Positions 18,951-25,547 of a stretch of 64,000 bases of DNA are shown here, in pieces. The stretch lies in contig NC_014762.1 in assembly GCF_000183725.1 (NCBI RefSeq), positions 744,001-808,000 of the forward strand, written 5' to 3'. The first letter of the stretch is position 1, and each line of letters begins with the position of its first letter. The stretch is from Sulfuricurvum kujiense DSM 16994 (GTDB lineage: Bacteria > Campylobacterota > Campylobacteria > Campylobacterales > Sulfurimonadaceae). A program made the position numbers and the translations under genes. The notes under the pieces are model-generated. The model searched no databases and was not told the origin of the DNA. It saw only the letters and a program-made list of their open reading frames with translations.

Positions 18951-19034
18951 TTGAGAATTGTAGCGAAATCATTTTATTATAGTGAATTCAGAGATATGGT
19001 AAGGATATTATTTTGATAGGTTGATATATTTAGC

Positions 19035-19040
19035 TATAAT
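19035..19040 (+). promoter_or_regulatory. -10 box for the type I restriction operon
   Basis: TATAAT in the AT-rich gap between mutY and hsdR, 34 bases before the chosen hsdR ATG at 19075. It lies inside a longer open frame that begins at 19021, which argues for the later start. No clear -35. Confidence 0.4.
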
Positions 19041-19074
19041 TAAGAATCATATATATTGGGTGAAAAGGTTGGGA

Positions 19075-21462
19075 ATGGCTTCTAAAAAAGATTTATCTGA
19101 AAGAGACATTTGTACCCAATTTATTTTACCTGCTTTAATCAAAGCGGGATGGAATATCGAAACCCAAATTAGAGAAGAGGTAAGTTTTACCGACGGTAGA
19201 ATTTATGTCAAAGGAAATAAAACGGCTCGTGGTGTTCGAAAACGGGCTGATTATATTCTCTATTACAAACCCAATATACCCATTGCGATAATCGAAGCCA
19301 AAGACAATAAACACACCGTAAGAGCTGGAATCCAACAGGGGATTGAATACTCTACCATTTTAGATATTCCCACTGTATTTAGCAGTAATGGGAATGGATT
19401 CTACGAATACGACAAAACCTTGTCAAATGGACAGATAGAACGTGAAATTTCTTTGGACAATTTCCCATCTCCTGAAGAACTTTGGAAACGATACCAAAAG
19501 TATAAAGGGATTACTTCTCCCGAAGAAGAAAAAATCATTGCACAAGATTATTATTTTGACGGTGGAAATCGAAGTCCGAGATATTATCAGCAAATAGCTA
19601 TCAATCGAACAGTCGAAGCAATCGCAAAAGGGCAAAATAGACTTCTCCTAACAATGGCAACAGGAACGGGGAAAACCTATACCGCTTTTCAGATTATTTA
19701 TCGACTTTGGAAGAGTGGAACGAAAAAGAGAATTCTCTTTCTTGCCGATAGAAATGCCCTGATTGATCAAACTAAACGGGGTGATTTCCGACATTTTAAA
19801 GATGTTATGACAGTCGTAAAGCAAAAAAAGATTGATAAATCGTTTGAAATTTATTTGGCTTTGTATCAAGGATTGACTAACTACGATGAAGACAAAGATG
19901 CTTATCGTGAATTTAGTTCTGATTTCTTTGATCTAATCGTTATTGATGAGTGTCATCGAGGAAGTGCCTCCGAAGACAGTGCGTGGAGAGAGATTTTAGA
20001 ATATTTCAAAAGTGCAACCCATATCGGTTTAACCGCTACTCCCAAAGAGACAAATGAAATTTCAAGCACTGAATATTTCGGTGATCCAATTTATACCTAT
20101 TCTCTTAAACAAGGGATCGAAGATGGATTCCTCGCTCCTTATAAAGTCATCCGTGTCGGATTGAATGTCGATTTGGAAGGGTGGAGACCTGAAAAAGGGA
20201 AAACCGATAAATTCGGTAATGAGATTGAAGACAGGCTTTACAATAAAAAAGATTTTGAAAAGAATCTTGTGATCGATGAGAGAACCGAAACTGTCGCTAA
20301 AAAGATTACCGAATTTTTGAAGAAGACCAACCGTTTTGATAAAACAATCGTCTTTTGTATCGACATCAATCATGCAGAACGGATGAGAGCCGCACTTGCG
20401 AATGAAAATGCGGATTTAATGGCACAAAATCCAAAATACATTATGCAGATTACAGGGGACAATCAAGAGGGAAAAATGGAGTTGGATAACTTCATCAATC
20501 CCCAAGAACGATACCCCGTTATAGCAACAACTTCCAAGCTGATGACGACAGGGGTAGATGCTCAAACGTGTAAGTTAATTGTTTTGGATAGCAATATCGC
20601 TTCAATGACGGAGTTTAAACAAATCATTGGTCGAGGAACTCGTATCAATGAGGAATACGGCAAAACCTTTTTCACCATTATGGATTTTAGAAACGTGACG
20701 GATTTGTTTGCCGATTATAATTTTGACGGCGATCCCGTTCGTATCAAAGAAATCTCCGAAACCGATGAGATTGAAACACCCGAAGACGAAGAGAATAATG
20801 ATGAGCCGATTACCGATGATGAGACGGGCGAAGAGATAATTTTTGAACCGCCGACGATTCGAGATGGAGGAGAGATTGAAGAACCGCCGCCTGAGCCTCG
20901 CGGAAAAATCTTTGTGAATGGGGTCAATGTCGCTGTTTTAAATGAGCGGATCCAATATATGGACACTAGCGGAAAGCTGATTACGGGGAGCCTCAAAGAT
21001 TACACCAAACAGCAGGTGAAAAAAGAGTTCGCTTCATTGGATGAATTTCTCAATCGATGGACTTCCAGTGAGCGAAAACAAGCTCTTATTGACGAATTGG
21101 AAGACAAAGGGATCATTTTAGATAACTTTCGTGAAGAGATTGGTCGGGATATGGATATTTTTGATTTAATATGTCATGCCGCATTTGATAAACCGCCTCT
21201 TAGTCGAAAAGAGAGGGCAGAAAATGTTAGAAAACGAGACTATTTCACCAAATACGGGGATAAAGCGAAAGCCGTTTTGGAAGCTCTTTTGGATAAATAT
21301 GCCGATGAAGGTATCGAAAATATCGAGAGTATGAAAGTGCTGACGGTTCAGCCGTTTGATCAAATCGGATCACCTGTGGAAATCGTCTCCCTTTTCGGCG
21401 GAAAACAAAAATATTTGCAAGTCATAGCAGAACTAGAAAACGAATTATACAAGGTAGCATAA
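19075..21462 (+). CDS. hsdR: type I restriction enzyme, R (endonuclease/translocase) subunit
   Basis: DNA translocase and nuclease of a type I restriction-modification system. I use ATG 19075 (MASKKDLSERDIC); an earlier ATG at 19021 would place the promoter in the gene. The 795 aa have an N-terminal PD-ExK nuclease (D59, E74-x-K76 in IAIIEAK), a superfamily 2 helicase with Walker A ATGTGKT (195-201), DECH (291-294), GLTATP and QIIGRGTR, an acidic linker rich in Glu/Asp at about 575-630, and an EcoEI-type C-terminal domain. hsdM follows after one base. The R-M-S order with R first and the small R subunit are like EcoEI-type systems. Confidence 0.93.
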   Translation: MASKKDLSERDICTQFILPALIKAGWNIETQIREEVSFTDGRIYVKGNKTARGVRKRADYILYYKPNIPIAIIEAKDNKHTVRAGIQQGIEYSTILDIPTVFSSNGNGFYEYDKTLSNGQIEREISLDNFPSPEELWKRYQKYKGITSPEEEKIIAQDYYFDGGNRSPRYYQQIAINRTVEAIAKGQNRLLLTMATGTGKTYTAFQIIYRLWKSGTKKRILFLADRNALIDQTKRGDFRHFKDVMTVVKQKKIDKSFEIYLALYQGLTNYDEDKDAYREFSSDFFDLIVIDECHRGSASEDSAWREILEYFKSATHIGLTATPKETNEISSTEYFGDPIYTYSLKQGIEDGFLAPYKVIRVGLNVDLEGWRPEKGKTDKFGNEIEDRLYNKKDFEKNLVIDERTETVAKKITEFLKKTNRFDKTIVFCIDINHAERMRAALANENADLMAQNPKYIMQITGDNQEGKMELDNFINPQERYPVIATTSKLMTTGVDAQTCKLIVLDSNIASMTEFKQIIGRGTRINEEYGKTFFTIMDFRNVTDLFADYNFDGDPVRIKEISETDEIETPEDEENNDEPITDDETGEEIIFEPPTIRDGGEIEEPPPEPRGKIFVNGVNVAVLNERIQYMDTSGKLITGSLKDYTKQQVKKEFASLDEFLNRWTSSERKQALIDELEDKGIILDNFREEIGRDMDIFDLICHAAFDKPPLSRKERAENVRKRDYFTKYGDKAKAVLEALLDKYADEGIENIESMKVLTVQPFDQIGSPVEIVSLFGGKQKYLQVIAELENELYKVA

Positions 21463-21463
21463 A

Positions 21464-22900
21464 TTGGGTCATAACATCAGTGGAATTATAAAAACAATCC
21501 GTAATTTAATGCGTGGAGACAAGGGTGTCAATGGTGACGCTCAACGAATCGAACAGCTCGGATGGATGATTTTTCTCAAAATCTTTGATGACAAAGACAT
21601 CGAAATGGAACTTCTCGATGATAACTATGTCTCGCCCATCCCTGCTGAATTGCAGTGGAGAAACTGGGCTTCGGATGATGAGGGATTGACGGGAGAGGCA
21701 CTCTTAGTATTTATCAATACGGAGCTATTTCCTACTTTGCAAAAATTGGCATTAGGAACGACTAATAAACGGGCGATTTTGGTTCGTGAAGTGTTCGAGG
21801 GAAACAATAACTATATGAAGTCGGGGACGATTATCCGACAAGTTATTAACAAGCTCAATGAAGTCAATTTCAACAGCTCCGAAGACCGTCATATGTTTGG
21901 GGATATTTATGAAACTATCCTCAAAGAGCTGCAAAGTGCGGGAGATAGCGGAGAGTTTTATACCCCTCGTGCGATCACCAATTTTATCACCGATAGGGTT
22001 GATCCGAAACTCGGTGAAATCGTTTTTGACCCTGCTTGCGGAACGGGGGGATTCCTCACCTCGGCGATTGAGCATATTCGACAAAAAGAGGTCAAAAACA
22101 TCGATGACCGTCTAACGCTTCAAAAGTCTATAAAAGGAGTGGAACTCAAACCGCTTCCTCATATGCTTGCTCTTACAAACCTCGTTTTGCACGATATAGA
22201 AGTGCCGAATATCGAATACGATGATGCCCTCTCAAAAGAGTTGAGTTCGATTACCCAAAAAGATAGAGTGGATGTCATTCTTGCCAATCCTCCGTTCGGT
22301 GGAAATGTGACGGACGGGATGGAGATGAATTTCCCGATGATTTACCGCACGAAAGAGTCGGCAGATTTGTTTTTGATTCTGATAATACAATATCTAAAAG
22401 ACGGAGGAAGAGCGGGGATCGTTCTCCCTGATGGATCACTGACGGGGGAGGGGGTAAAAGCCCGTATTCGTCAAAAGCTCCTCGAAGATTGTAATCTACA
22501 CACAATCATCAGACTTCCGAATTCGGTTTTTCAACCGTATGCCAGTGTCGCTACGAACCTTCTTTTTTTTACCAAAGGAGAGCCGACAAAAGAGATTTGG
22601 TATTACGAACACCAACTTCCAGTAGGACAGAAAGCATATAACAAAACGAATCCTATTCAACTCAAAGAATTTGATCCGATAAAAGCATGGTGGGATAACC
22701 GTTTAGAGAGTGAACAAGCGTGGAAAGTTGATATCGAGACGATAAAAAATAGTGGATATAACCTTGACTTCAAAAATCCTCATAAAAAAGAGGAAGAAGA
22801 GATACACACTTCTACTCAACTTCTTGAGATGCTTCATCAATCATTTGCTAAAAGTGAAGTATTGTTGAATATGTTAAAAAGTGAATTAACTAATGAATAA
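21464..22900 (+). CDS. hsdM: type I restriction enzyme, M (N6-adenine methylase) subunit
   Basis: Methylates adenine in the recognition site and forms M2S and R2M2S complexes. TTG start one base after hsdR (MGHNISGIIKTIRNLMRG). The 478 aa have an N-terminal HsdM helical domain, AdoMet-binding motif I DPACGTGGF (189-197) and catalytic motif IV NPPF (275-278). The end overlaps hsdS by eight bases, so synthesis is coupled. Confidence 0.94.
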   Translation: MGHNISGIIKTIRNLMRGDKGVNGDAQRIEQLGWMIFLKIFDDKDIEMELLDDNYVSPIPAELQWRNWASDDEGLTGEALLVFINTELFPTLQKLALGTTNKRAILVREVFEGNNNYMKSGTIIRQVINKLNEVNFNSSEDRHMFGDIYETILKELQSAGDSGEFYTPRAITNFITDRVDPKLGEIVFDPACGTGGFLTSAIEHIRQKEVKNIDDRLTLQKSIKGVELKPLPHMLALTNLVLHDIEVPNIEYDDALSKELSSITQKDRVDVILANPPFGGNVTDGMEMNFPMIYRTKESADLFLILIIQYLKDGGRAGIVLPDGSLTGEGVKARIRQKLLEDCNLHTIIRLPNSVFQPYASVATNLLFFTKGEPTKEIWYYEHQLPVGQKAYNKTNPIQLKEFDPIKAWWDNRLESEQAWKVDIETIKNSGYNLDFKNPHKKEEEEIHTSTQLLEMLHQSFAKSEVLLNMLKSELTNE

Positions 22901-24800
22901 AGTTTTACTTGGAGACATTCTTACGGAAAGTAAGGTAGAATCACTTAATCCAGACCCAAATAACAGAATTACTGTAAGATTAAACGTTAAAGGTGTTGAA
23001 AAAAGACCTGTCAAAAATGACACCGAAGGTGCTACTAAATATTATATAAGAAGTTTCAATCAATTCATTTATGGCAAACAAAATCTCTTTAAAGGTGCAT
23101 TTGGAATCATTCCAAAAGAATTAGATGGCTTTGAAACGAGTTCTGACTTACCTTGTTTTGATATAGACATAAATAGATGTAAGCCTGAGTGGATTTTATA
23201 CTTTTTCAAAAAAGGGAATTTTTATAAAACACTTGAAAAGATTGCACGAGGAGCAGGTTCTAAACGGATAAGTCCAAAAGATTTTTTTAAAATTGAAATC
23301 CCTTTGCCCTCTATCGATCAACAGGAAAGCATTTTAAATAAAATATCTTCCATAACTAATTATAGTATTCGTATAGAAGATGAAATTTTTAGCCAACAAA
23401 ATCTCCTAAAAAAACTCCGTCAATCGATACTTCAAGAAGCTATCGAAGGGAAATTGACAGCGCAATGGCGAAAAGAAAATTCAGACGTAGAGTCAGTATC
23501 CAAACTACTCAAAAAAATAAGGGATGAGAAAGAACGACTTATCAAAGAGAAAAAAATTAAAAAGGGTGCAGAGGTTTCACCAATTCTTACCAATGATATT
23601 CCATTTATTATCCCTCAAAATTGGGGTTGGTGCAGATTAGGGAATCTTTTAAGATCATTAGAATATGGCACATCGAAAAAATGTTTTCAAGAGAAAAAAT
23701 ATAATACTCCGATTTTAAGAATACCTAATATATCATCTGGAATTATTAATGTCGATGATTTAAAATTTACAGATCTTTCTGAGAAAGAAAAAGCACAGTA
23801 TACTCTTGAAAATAATGACATCTTAATTATCCGTTCAAATGGTAGTAGAGAAATAGTTGGTAGGTCGGTATTGGTATCCAATGAATTCCAAAATTATGGA
23901 TATGCAGGGTATCTAATTCGTTTGCGTTTCATTGGTATTTCAATAGATGCTAAATATATTCAGTATGCGTTGAGAAGCCCATATATAAGAGAACAAATAG
24001 AAATGCCGTTAAGAACGACTGTCGGAATTAACAATATTAATAGTGTTGAGATTTCCAATCTTTTAATTCCCTTGCCTCCAATAGAAGAACAGAACGTGAT
24101 TGTTGAAAAAGTAGAAAATCTTTTTGCTATGTGCGATGACCTTGAACAACAAATCAATGAATCCAAAGCCAATGCTGAAATGTTGATGCAATCAGTTCTT
24201 AAAGAGGCGTTTGAAGAAAAATCGGAAGTCGATACAACGGAGCCACACGCACCGAAAACCTTCCAACGCAGTGTCCTTGCCGCCTACTTGATCGATAACA
24301 GTCAAGATGATCAATTTTTCGGACACGTCAAGCTCCAAAAAATGCTTTATATGTGTGAAGCGGTCAATAATCTGGATTTTGATACAGACTATAAACGTCA
24401 TGCGATGGGTCCGTATGATCCAAAACTGATTCGATCCGTGGACTCTCAACTAAAAAAAGCAAAATGGTTTGAAGTGAAAAAATTGGATGGTGAAATAAGT
24501 AGATATGTTTACCACCCTCTCGAAAAAGTAGAAGAGTACAAAAAATATGTAGGGCGATATTGGGATCAGCAAAAAATAGAGCATATTTTTCATCTTATGA
24601 AACCGATGAGGACGTTGCAAGCCGAAATCGTAGCGACACTTTACAGTGCCTACACGGATTTGAAAAAGGCTAACGTATCTATTACCGATGCAATACTTAT
24701 TAATGAAGCACGGAATAACTGGCATGATAATAAAAAAAATATAGCCGTCGAGACATGGGAAAAAGCAATCGAATGGATGAAAAGTAAAAATCTGTTGTAA
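22893..24800 (+). CDS. hsdS: type I restriction S subunit fused to a Panacea/SocA-like C-terminal domain
   Basis: Specificity subunit. The 635 aa are about 200 longer than usual. Residues 1-145 are target recognition domain 1, ending in the conserved IPLPSIDQQESI. Residues 150-230 form the central conserved helix with QEAIEGKLTAQWR. Residues 235-405 are recognition domain 2, ending IPLPPIEEQNVI, followed by the distal conserved helix to VLKEAFEEK (435-443), the natural end of an HsdS. After a short polar linker comes a separate domain (about 457-635): VKLQKMLYM (479-487) and AMGPYDPKL (504-512) match the KLqKLlY...A...GP pattern of the Panacea (SocA/DUF4065) antitoxin domain. A small RNase-like ORF follows after 15 bases. 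HsdS is firm; the extra domain is my reading of short motifs. Confidence 0.88.
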   Translation: MNKVLLGDILTESKVESLNPDPNNRITVRLNVKGVEKRPVKNDTEGATKYYIRSFNQFIYGKQNLFKGAFGIIPKELDGFETSSDLPCFDIDINRCKPEWILYFFKKGNFYKTLEKIARGAGSKRISPKDFFKIEIPLPSIDQQESILNKISSITNYSIRIEDEIFSQQNLLKKLRQSILQEAIEGKLTAQWRKENSDVESVSKLLKKIRDEKERLIKEKKIKKGAEVSPILTNDIPFIIPQNWGWCRLGNLLRSLEYGTSKKCFQEKKYNTPILRIPNISSGIINVDDLKFTDLSEKEKAQYTLENNDILIIRSNGSREIVGRSVLVSNEFQNYGYAGYLIRLRFIGISIDAKYIQYALRSPYIREQIEMPLRTTVGINNINSVEISNLLIPLPPIEEQNVIVEKVENLFAMCDDLEQQINESKANAEMLMQSVLKEAFEEKSEVDTTEPHAPKTFQRSVLAAYLIDNSQDDQFFGHVKLQKMLYMCEAVNNLDFDTDYKRHAMGPYDPKLIRSVDSQLKKAKWFEVKKLDGEISRYVYHPLEKVEEYKKYVGRYWDQQKIEHIFHLMKPMRTLQAEIVATLYSAYTDLKKANVSITDAILINEARNNWHDNKKNIAVETWEKAIEWMKSKNLL

Positions 24801-24815
24801 AAGGAAGTATGGGGT

Positions 24816-25226
24816 ATGCCCAAACAACTAATCTGTGATTTGATGAAAGTTGCATTATCGGATAGCCGCTCCCAAGACTATATCACTTTTCCTCTGCATG
24901 AAAAGTGCATAAGACGGGTTCATGCTATTCTGAATCTAAATCTGACGGGCTATCAATGTTATATCCATTGCAATGATATTCGTCATGTCTATAATAGACA
25001 TCCATTAGACCACCATTATTTATGCTACATTCCCGATATACTAAAAAATTTCAATAGAATAGAAAAAGAAAACACAACAGATCGAAGAACGGGCAAATCA
25101 CAGCTCGTTTATAAATTTTACAAAAAATATAACGGCAATGTCGTGAAATTGGTTAAAGTAAGAGTACACCAAGATAAAACAATCAATTTGAAAACATTGT
25201 TTACGATAGGGGATGAGGGGCAGTAG
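24816..25226 (+). CDS. small protein resembling PBECR-type (barnase/EndoU/RelE-like) nucleases, candidate toxin
   Basis: A 136 aa cytosolic protein with no signal or membrane segment. AAGGAAG at 24801-24807 is a good ribosome site for ATG 24816. The pattern DIRHVYNRHP (54-63), YIPDILKNF (71-79), RIEKEN, then two or three strands ending LKTLFTI (125-131) resembles the phage-associated PBECR nuclease-fold families, in which conserved His/Arg/Lys act on RNA. Candidates here are R56, H57, R61, H62, K100 and T130. It sits directly after an HsdS with a Panacea-like antitoxin domain, the order antitoxin-toxin expected of such pairs. It could instead be an unrelated small defence accessory. The gene is confident; the function is inferred. 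Confidence 0.75.
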   Translation: MPKQLICDLMKVALSDSRSQDYITFPLHEKCIRRVHAILNLNLTGYQCYIHCNDIRHVYNRHPLDHHYLCYIPDILKNFNRIEKENTTDRRTGKSQLVYKFYKKYNGNVVKLVKVRVHQDKTINLKTLFTIGDEGQ

Positions 25227-25242
25227 ACCAAAAACTACTGCA
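25221..25242 (+). terminator. hairpin at the end of the restriction operon
   Basis: GCAGTAG and CTACTGC form a seven-base perfect stem with an eight-base A-rich loop. The left arm contains the stop codon of the small RNase-like gene. No T-run follows, so it may be a weak terminator or an mRNA end stabiliser. Confidence 0.35.
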
Positions 25243-25547
25243 TTCTACGGGTGTGGACTGATGAATTAACCCCAGTCTGACGTTCTAAACGGACTCCGAT
25301 GGTTTTTAAGGAAAAAAAATGGACATATCAACAGAATATGCCACTTAAAATCTACCGAAGTAAACTTTGAGTGGAACATCTTGTCACTATCTTAACACAA
25401 CTTCATTAATGCAATATAAATCGTCTATATTTGTAAGATTTTTATATCGAACACATCTTATAATGCGATTGGACTGAAATTATACTTAAATTATTTTAAG
25501 TATAGCTTGTACTCTAAACGCTTATTTTGTCAATTGTTGCGGTGTCA
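25243..25547. other. AT-rich intergenic region with one perfect inverted repeat
   Basis: No open frame of note on either strand. At 25481-25504 there is a perfect 10-base inverted repeat, TATACTTAAA-TTAT-TTTAAGTATA, which is too AT-rich and lacks a T-tract for a standard terminator; it lies beyond the end of the small minus-strand gene at 25548 and could be its 3' hairpin or an operator. The rest appears featureless and may be the right boundary of the restriction island. Confidence 0.5.

Follow-up and report, generated by a model that had tools for sequence, protein, structure and literature searches.

The type I restriction operon of Sulfuricurvum kujiense DSM 16994 is followed closely by a small ORF, which raises the question of whether a toxin is encoded there and, if so, what keeps it under control. 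The window, i.e. the whole 64,000-nucleotide stretch of this 2.8-Mb genome that was analysed, carries on its plus strand hsdR (19021–21462), recognised by matches to ResIII and EcoEI_R_C, hsdM of the same operon (21464–22900; N6_Mtase, E = 1.1e-72), and hsdS (22893–24800), whose 635-aa product is a type I specificity subunit with Methylase_S domains (E = 7.2e-17). After a gap of 15 bp, an ORF of 136 aa follows on the same strand (24816–25226). An earlier note on this DNA had proposed that the ORF is a PBECR-type toxin and that an extra domain at the C terminus of HsdS is its antitoxin. In the comparisons below, G plus a number labels a genome and L plus a number a locus.

The assignment of the ORF was borne out by a match to the Pfam family PBECR3 (PF18812) at E = 2.2e-11 and 44.1 bits, with a cutoff of 30; by Pfam, membership lies with PBECR3 and not with ToxN, CptN, or TenpN. 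The protein is a predicted metal-independent endoRNase. In a family alignment, H57, H62, K126, and T127 were invariant among 18 PBECR3 relatives, and H57, H62, and T127 supply the helix His and C-terminal Thr/Ser that mark the family. For six pairs of relatives, dN/dS ranged from 0.10 to 0.26, the two closest pairs giving 0.12 and 0.10, which indicates that PBECR3 is under purifying selection. The structural model was of middling confidence (pLDDT 73.6), and a fold search of this model against solved structures returned no significant match and no RNase. Searches with the single query protein P0001 gave no viral relative and no phage record. PBECR domains have been suggested to cleave RNAs of the host or of CRISPR systems (PMC5512222), and from this precedent we infer that PBECR3 would be a toxic endoRNase.

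Directly 3' of the PBECR3 ORF lies a conserved element that the earlier note had missed. It was found in the 260 bases after each PBECR3 stop codon in 16 loci, all 16 of which carry it as a stretch of ~100 nt on the opposite strand. In the window, it corresponds to a predicted structured ncRNA at 25219–25313 on the minus strand, convergent with PBECR3 and overlapping its last codons. The covariance model R1 matched here with 85.6 bits (E = 7.9e-15), the window sequence being among the 16 sources of R1, and the next best match had 14.6 bits. The predicted fold, given here in minus-strand letters, consists of P1, a 7-bp hairpin at the 3' end (25220–25241) with the loop UUUUUGGU and its 3' strand over the PBECR3 stop codon; a short helix, P2, whose 5' strand CGG (25296–25298) pairs with CCG at 25248–25250; and an H-type pseudoknot, in which a 5' ACCA (25300–25303) pairs with UGGU of the P1 loop (25227–25230).

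For scoring of covariation, two alignments were used: A10, which is MAFFT-based and holds 16 sequences, and A11, with 29 sequences (28 distinct) found by the covariance model. In A10, 97.3% of cells paired; double-change cells numbered 33, compared with 8.9 in shuffles, and pairing was destroyed on sliding. For the 28 distinct sequences of A11, P1 and P2 together were 99.6% paired, with 59 double-change cells against 15.0 in shuffles and a covariation score of 0.657, compared with 0.241 in shuffles and 0.04–0.14 when slid; the A10 count is the safer one, because cmsearch alignments such as A11 are fitted to the model. Every scored cell of P1 was paired in both alignments, with both-side changes in 5 pairs. 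P2 was paired at 100% in A10 and 98.8% in A11, with both-side changes in two of its three pairs and CGG/CCG, UAG/CUA, UGG/CCA, and GGG/CCC as variants among the relatives. The pseudoknot was kept in structural register in all 16 of the first loci, two of them (L148 and L149) by way of ACCG/CGGU; three apparent failures were due to a one-base alignment shift, and a third compensated ACCG/CGGU pseudoknot was seen in L230. The window RNA keeps all helices, and its single-sequence fold was no more stable than shuffles (z = −0.09).

Wobble cells in A11, read on the minus strand, comprised 13 G-U and 0 A-C, which places the RNA on the strand opposite to PBECR3; a plus-strand reading was ruled out by these cells, which come from host loci. 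For the 12 viral copies in A12, G-U and A-C were equal at 2 each, a count that is neutral on strand. Ahead of the RNA, a near-consensus sigma70 site (TTGACA, a spacer of 17–18 nt, TATAAT) was present in 12 of 16 loci with 11–12 of 12 matches, a quality reached in <1.5% of shuffles in most loci. At the place of the TTGACA-N17-TATAAT of its relatives, the window has a weak promoter-like site (25335–25364, minus strand; TTTACT, 18 nt, CATATT) with 8 of 12 matches by hand (alignment A8); the best site of an automatic scan had 9 of 12 and was not above shuffles. Because this promoter is weak, the window copy of the RNA may be poorly expressed. Among phage copies, few have a clear promoter. No Rfam match was obtained for the RNA in the window and five relative loci, and the pseudoknot RNA is previously undescribed. 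In G360 (L146, 1241–1307), an Rfam Flavo-1 RNA (49.8 bits) lies 87 nt upstream of the PBECR3-associated RNA, without overlap.

PBECR3 genes of the window-type clade, searched for with a profile from four relatives, were present in 17 of 399 genomes of the order Campylobacterales; within the window's own genus, 3 of 41 genomes had one. Solo genes of ~135 aa lie 3 bp after dnaE in G029 and G016, and in G328 PBECR3 and metH overlap by 4 bp. Type I-F cas genes accompany four copies, which lie 2 or 120 bp after cas1 (G536, G510), just ahead of a cas3 remnant (G480), or between cas2-3 and csy1 (G442). A further four follow phage-type integrase genes or their remnants at 37–86 bp (G557, G268, G360, and G443), G387 and G222 have PBECR3 without a close partner gene, and additional solo copies are found on viral contigs. 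Neither HsdS nor a DarG-like domain was found beside the PBECR3 relatives. As a separate observation, PBECR3 with its RNA occurs in or beside type I-F cas operons at L161, L162, L163, and L165, in four genomes and at two different junctions. The 3' end of dnaE was also noted as an insertion hotspot in the window's genus (L044/G029, L168/G016, and L178–L207): DNA directly after the dnaE stop codon differs in most of the compared genomes of the genus, and in G029 the dnaE end is present again ~230 bp beyond PBECR3.

A survey for the RNA took in the same 399 genomes, together with viral contigs and one plasmid. The RNA was present in all 17 PBECR3-bearing genomes and in 23 of the 399 overall, with no PBECR3 detected in 6; the association also holds in G016, in pACLO, and on PBECR3-bearing viral contigs, and the RNA adjoins PBECR3 in every intact case. 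At the loci of other PBECR3 proteins, the RNA was not found (0 of 42). Where PBECR3 is part of a long ORF (G173, G439, G496, and G562), the RNA is antisense to that ORF and lies within it; at L224, L225, L226, and L227, it is retained there immediately behind the PBECR3 domain. Some RNA-only host copies show PBECR3 remnants (G222 C6, G294, and G328 C50), and on the Arcobacter cloacae plasmid pACLO the RNA lies next to a broken PBECR3. The G359 locus is an orthologue of the G387 locus (86%/80% identical) in which only the PBECR3 gene is missing and the RNA is kept. That the toxin is lost and the RNA retained, whereas no intact PBECR3 gene of the clade is without the RNA, fits the prediction for a toxin–antitoxin pair. 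Distances between PBECR3 proteins and between their RNAs were correlated (Mantel r = 0.69, p = 1e-4), a correlation that linkage alone also gives.

On viral contigs with the exact RNA core, PBECR3 was intact in L233, L237, and L242 and present as remnants in L235 and L239; L234, L236, L238, L240, L241, and L243 carry the RNA only. In L234, L236, and L240, the RNA lies just after a gene, which in L240 encodes an RNA_ligase-family protein, and a ribonucleotide reductase-like gene lies just beyond the RNA in L240 and L241. Behind an RNA ligase-like gene, the phage RNA may act as an antitoxin decoy in concert with RNA repair. No copy of the RNA was found in annotated phages.

What the sequence comparisons show is that PBECR3 and the RNA go together, that the RNA has a covarying fold and in most relatives a promoter of its own, that the toxin gene can be lost while the RNA stays, that phages carry RNA-only copies, and that the module lies behind unrelated genes. 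The explanation that we consider probable is that PBECR3 and the convergent RNA form a mobile two-part module behind hsdS, similar to type III systems, with the RNA inhibiting a toxic RNase. Read-through of the host operon would supply PBECR3, and the RNA, transcribed from a separate promoter, would bind and inhibit it by type III-like logic. When the RNA level falls, on phage infection or locus loss, the RNase would be freed and growth or infection aborted. Riding behind defence and housekeeping genes, such a module would addict the cell to its host operon or defend against phages. A wider claim, which we put forward tentatively as falling just short of probable, is that this could be a new protein–RNA addiction or anti-phage family, mobile between host operons, with one convergent pseudoknot RNA keeping a PBECR-fold RNase silent; it would guard restriction and type I-F CRISPR loci, and phages would counter it with the RNA alone.

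The position of the RNA allows for a type I-like mode of action, by which it would be an antisense RNA on the read-through PBECR3 mRNA and would not act on the protein. It reaches into the 3' end of PBECR3, and its base pairing with the 3' UTR of that message would be perfect. A covarying pseudoknot is needless for antisense action, however, and speaks for more than antisense pairing, and the RNA-only copies in phages lie apart from any PBECR3 and have diverged in internal sequence with the structure kept. We therefore regard antisense action as unlikely, though not negligible.

The type I-F cas settings bear on another possibility, namely that, instead of acting as an antitoxin, the RNA serves PBECR3 as substrate, guide, or processed partner, as in an RNP effector aimed at crRNAs or phage RNAs. 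Four copies tied to these genes would suit such an effector, as would the cleavage of host or CRISPR RNAs by PBECR domains that PMC5512222 proposes, but retention of the RNA after toxin loss and the phage RNA-only copies fit an inhibitor better, and a variable guide segment was not seen; a substrate or guide role is distinctly unlikely in our view.

The inhibitory-RNA module proposed here resembles type III toxin–antitoxin systems (ToxIN, CptIN, and TenpIN; PMC5086642) in joining an endoRNase, in this case predicted, to a cognate pseudoknot RNA; the pseudoknot is present as ACCA/UGGU and compensated ACCG/CGGU, and the antitoxin role is putative. In known type III systems, the toxin shares an operon with an array of RNA repeats, which precedes it and is separated from it by a terminator (PMC5086642). 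Here, by contrast, the RNA is a single copy of ~100 nt that lies 3' of the putative toxin gene on the other strand and, in most loci, has a promoter of its own; that putative toxin is PBECR3 instead of ToxN, CptN, or TenpN. An antitoxin-like RNA, pseudo-ToxI, is carried by phage PhiTE (PMC3475682), and the RNA-only copies in phages recall it. The PBECR domains of phage polyvalent proteins (PF18812; PMC5512222) are of the same family, with the conserved His/Thr pair; the window type differs in that the gene, of 135 aa, stands alone, has a partner RNA, and is found mostly on bacterial chromosomes. In the open-access literature, two papers name PBECR, and no partner RNA is mentioned in the passages on these domains that were consulted. 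CreTA, the RNA guards of CRISPR-Cas (PMC9458426, PMC10097628), are likewise addiction-like modules with an RNA component and are associated with CRISPR-Cas, type I-F included. There, the toxin CreT is itself an RNA and is kept repressed by Cascade together with CreA (PMC9458426, PMC10097628), whereas the module described here has a putative protein toxin and does not need a Cas protein outside cas operons.

If this reading is true, a cognate inhibitor RNA would give PBECR domains a function. To our knowledge, no biological control of these domains is known. RNA-antitoxin systems would also gain a toxin superfamily and a new arrangement of genes, and the placement at type I restriction and type I-F cas genes would extend the guard idea of CreTA to protein toxins. 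The RNA-only copies of phages make an arms race directly testable, and the RNA, for which there is no Rfam match, is easy to probe.

The second part of the earlier proposal concerned the HsdS protein itself. An additional C-terminal domain of ~180 residues (aa ~448–635; 24252–24797, plus strand) is indeed real: it folds separately in the AlphaFold (AF2) model with a mean pLDDT of 95.3, and a scan of 84,980 genomes (alignment A4) detected 114 relatives, 80 of which were kept. Its best match among solved folds was 7yk3_D, the C-terminal domain chain of the DarG antitoxin in the M. tuberculosis DarTG complex (PDB 7yk3), with Z = 15.4 over 168 residues and a runner-up at Z = 6.8; this likeness emerged by fold search alone, a sequence search of the PDB having returned nothing. 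The NCBIfam DarG model (NF048014) was matched by 15 of 58 extension relatives (best 1.7e-9). The extension shares the VKLQKMLYM and GPYD motifs with Panacea (SocA/DUF4065; PMC8832971, PMC10440598), but differs in that the window protein has no significant match to Pfam SocA_Panacea (PF13274), which 3 of the 58 relatives match weakly (best E = 0.0025). A comparison of the extension profile with one single Panacea protein gave no support, and a single-protein search of genome contigs with the extension found nothing. Given the fold and the NF048014 matches as against the few weak SocA_Panacea ones, the extension is better described as an antitoxin-type domain that is DarG-like than as a clear Panacea domain, so that the antitoxin type named in the earlier note stands and the Panacea label is not confirmed. 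Unlike DarG, the HsdS proteins lack the N-terminal macrodomain, their N-terminal part being HsdS, and no DarT was identified next to them: the next ORF in the window is PBECR3, and none turned up among those downstream ORFs of relatives that were classed. Besides HsdS, the domain also turns up on HsdM and as standalone proteins.

Forty-eight other HsdS proteins (complete cases) bear the extension, with Methylase_S confirmed in all 48; the remaining hosts are HsdM, proteins of ~1100 aa, or, in Bacteroidota, standalone proteins. Directly downstream (within ~20 bp) of at least 15 extension-bearing hsdS genes lies hsdR, and DUF3990, DUF6037, GIY-YIG-like, and DUF1016 genes follow other extension hosts. 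A survey of hsdS–ORF pairs had been set beforehand as a test of the proposed pair, and the nearest relatives of the extension (Malaciobacter, 71% identity; G278, 62%; G055, ~65%) are followed by a different ORF, by DUF1016, or by no ORF, with PBECR3 absent. A PBECR3 profile search of the extension loci found none of the window's type (0 of 88), and the convergent RNA was likewise absent from all 88. The pairing of extension and PBECR3 is therefore one seen a single time.

The idea that the extension is a type II protein antitoxin of PBECR3, with loss of the restriction complex freeing the toxin, draws on the 15-bp adjacency, on the fold shared with the toxin-binding domain of DarG, and on toxin-like ORFs after other HsdS extensions, such as a DUF3990 gene overlapping by 4 bp. 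Window-type PBECR3 lies at no other extension locus, however, nor the extension at any other PBECR3 of the clade; at least 15 extension-bearing HsdS are succeeded by hsdR directly; and it is the RNA partner that always accompanies PBECR3. We consider a protein antitoxin of this kind very unlikely, and it was rejected on comparative grounds, as the two-gene pair is not conserved across genomes. The broader notion of the ORF as a controlled toxin that adds an addiction layer may hold, with the RNA then most likely the controller. That the RNA region is instead a DNA mobility element (an att site or element end) with a secondary RNA-like structure is hardly credible: modules at gene 3' ends and behind integrases, and the duplicated dnaE end beyond the module in G029, would accord with it, but the RNA is also kept inside the long PBECR3 ORFs of four genomes, and covariation through G-U and not A-C in host loci, together with the conserved promoter, indicates a transcribed RNA.

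We judge the DarG-like extension of HsdS to be general to type I restriction systems and separate from the PBECR3 module. In Spirochaetia (L103, 5659–6162, and L110), a DUF3990 gene overlaps by 4 bp an hsdS with a DarG-like extension, and this HsdS–DUF3990 arrangement is a better candidate for an HsdS-fused antitoxin with its toxin. The standalone genes of Bacteroidota that resemble the DarG C-terminal domain (L084–L108 and L007) directly follow an ORF of ~200–220 aa, which resembles an ECF sigma factor by a weak Sigma70_r4 match.
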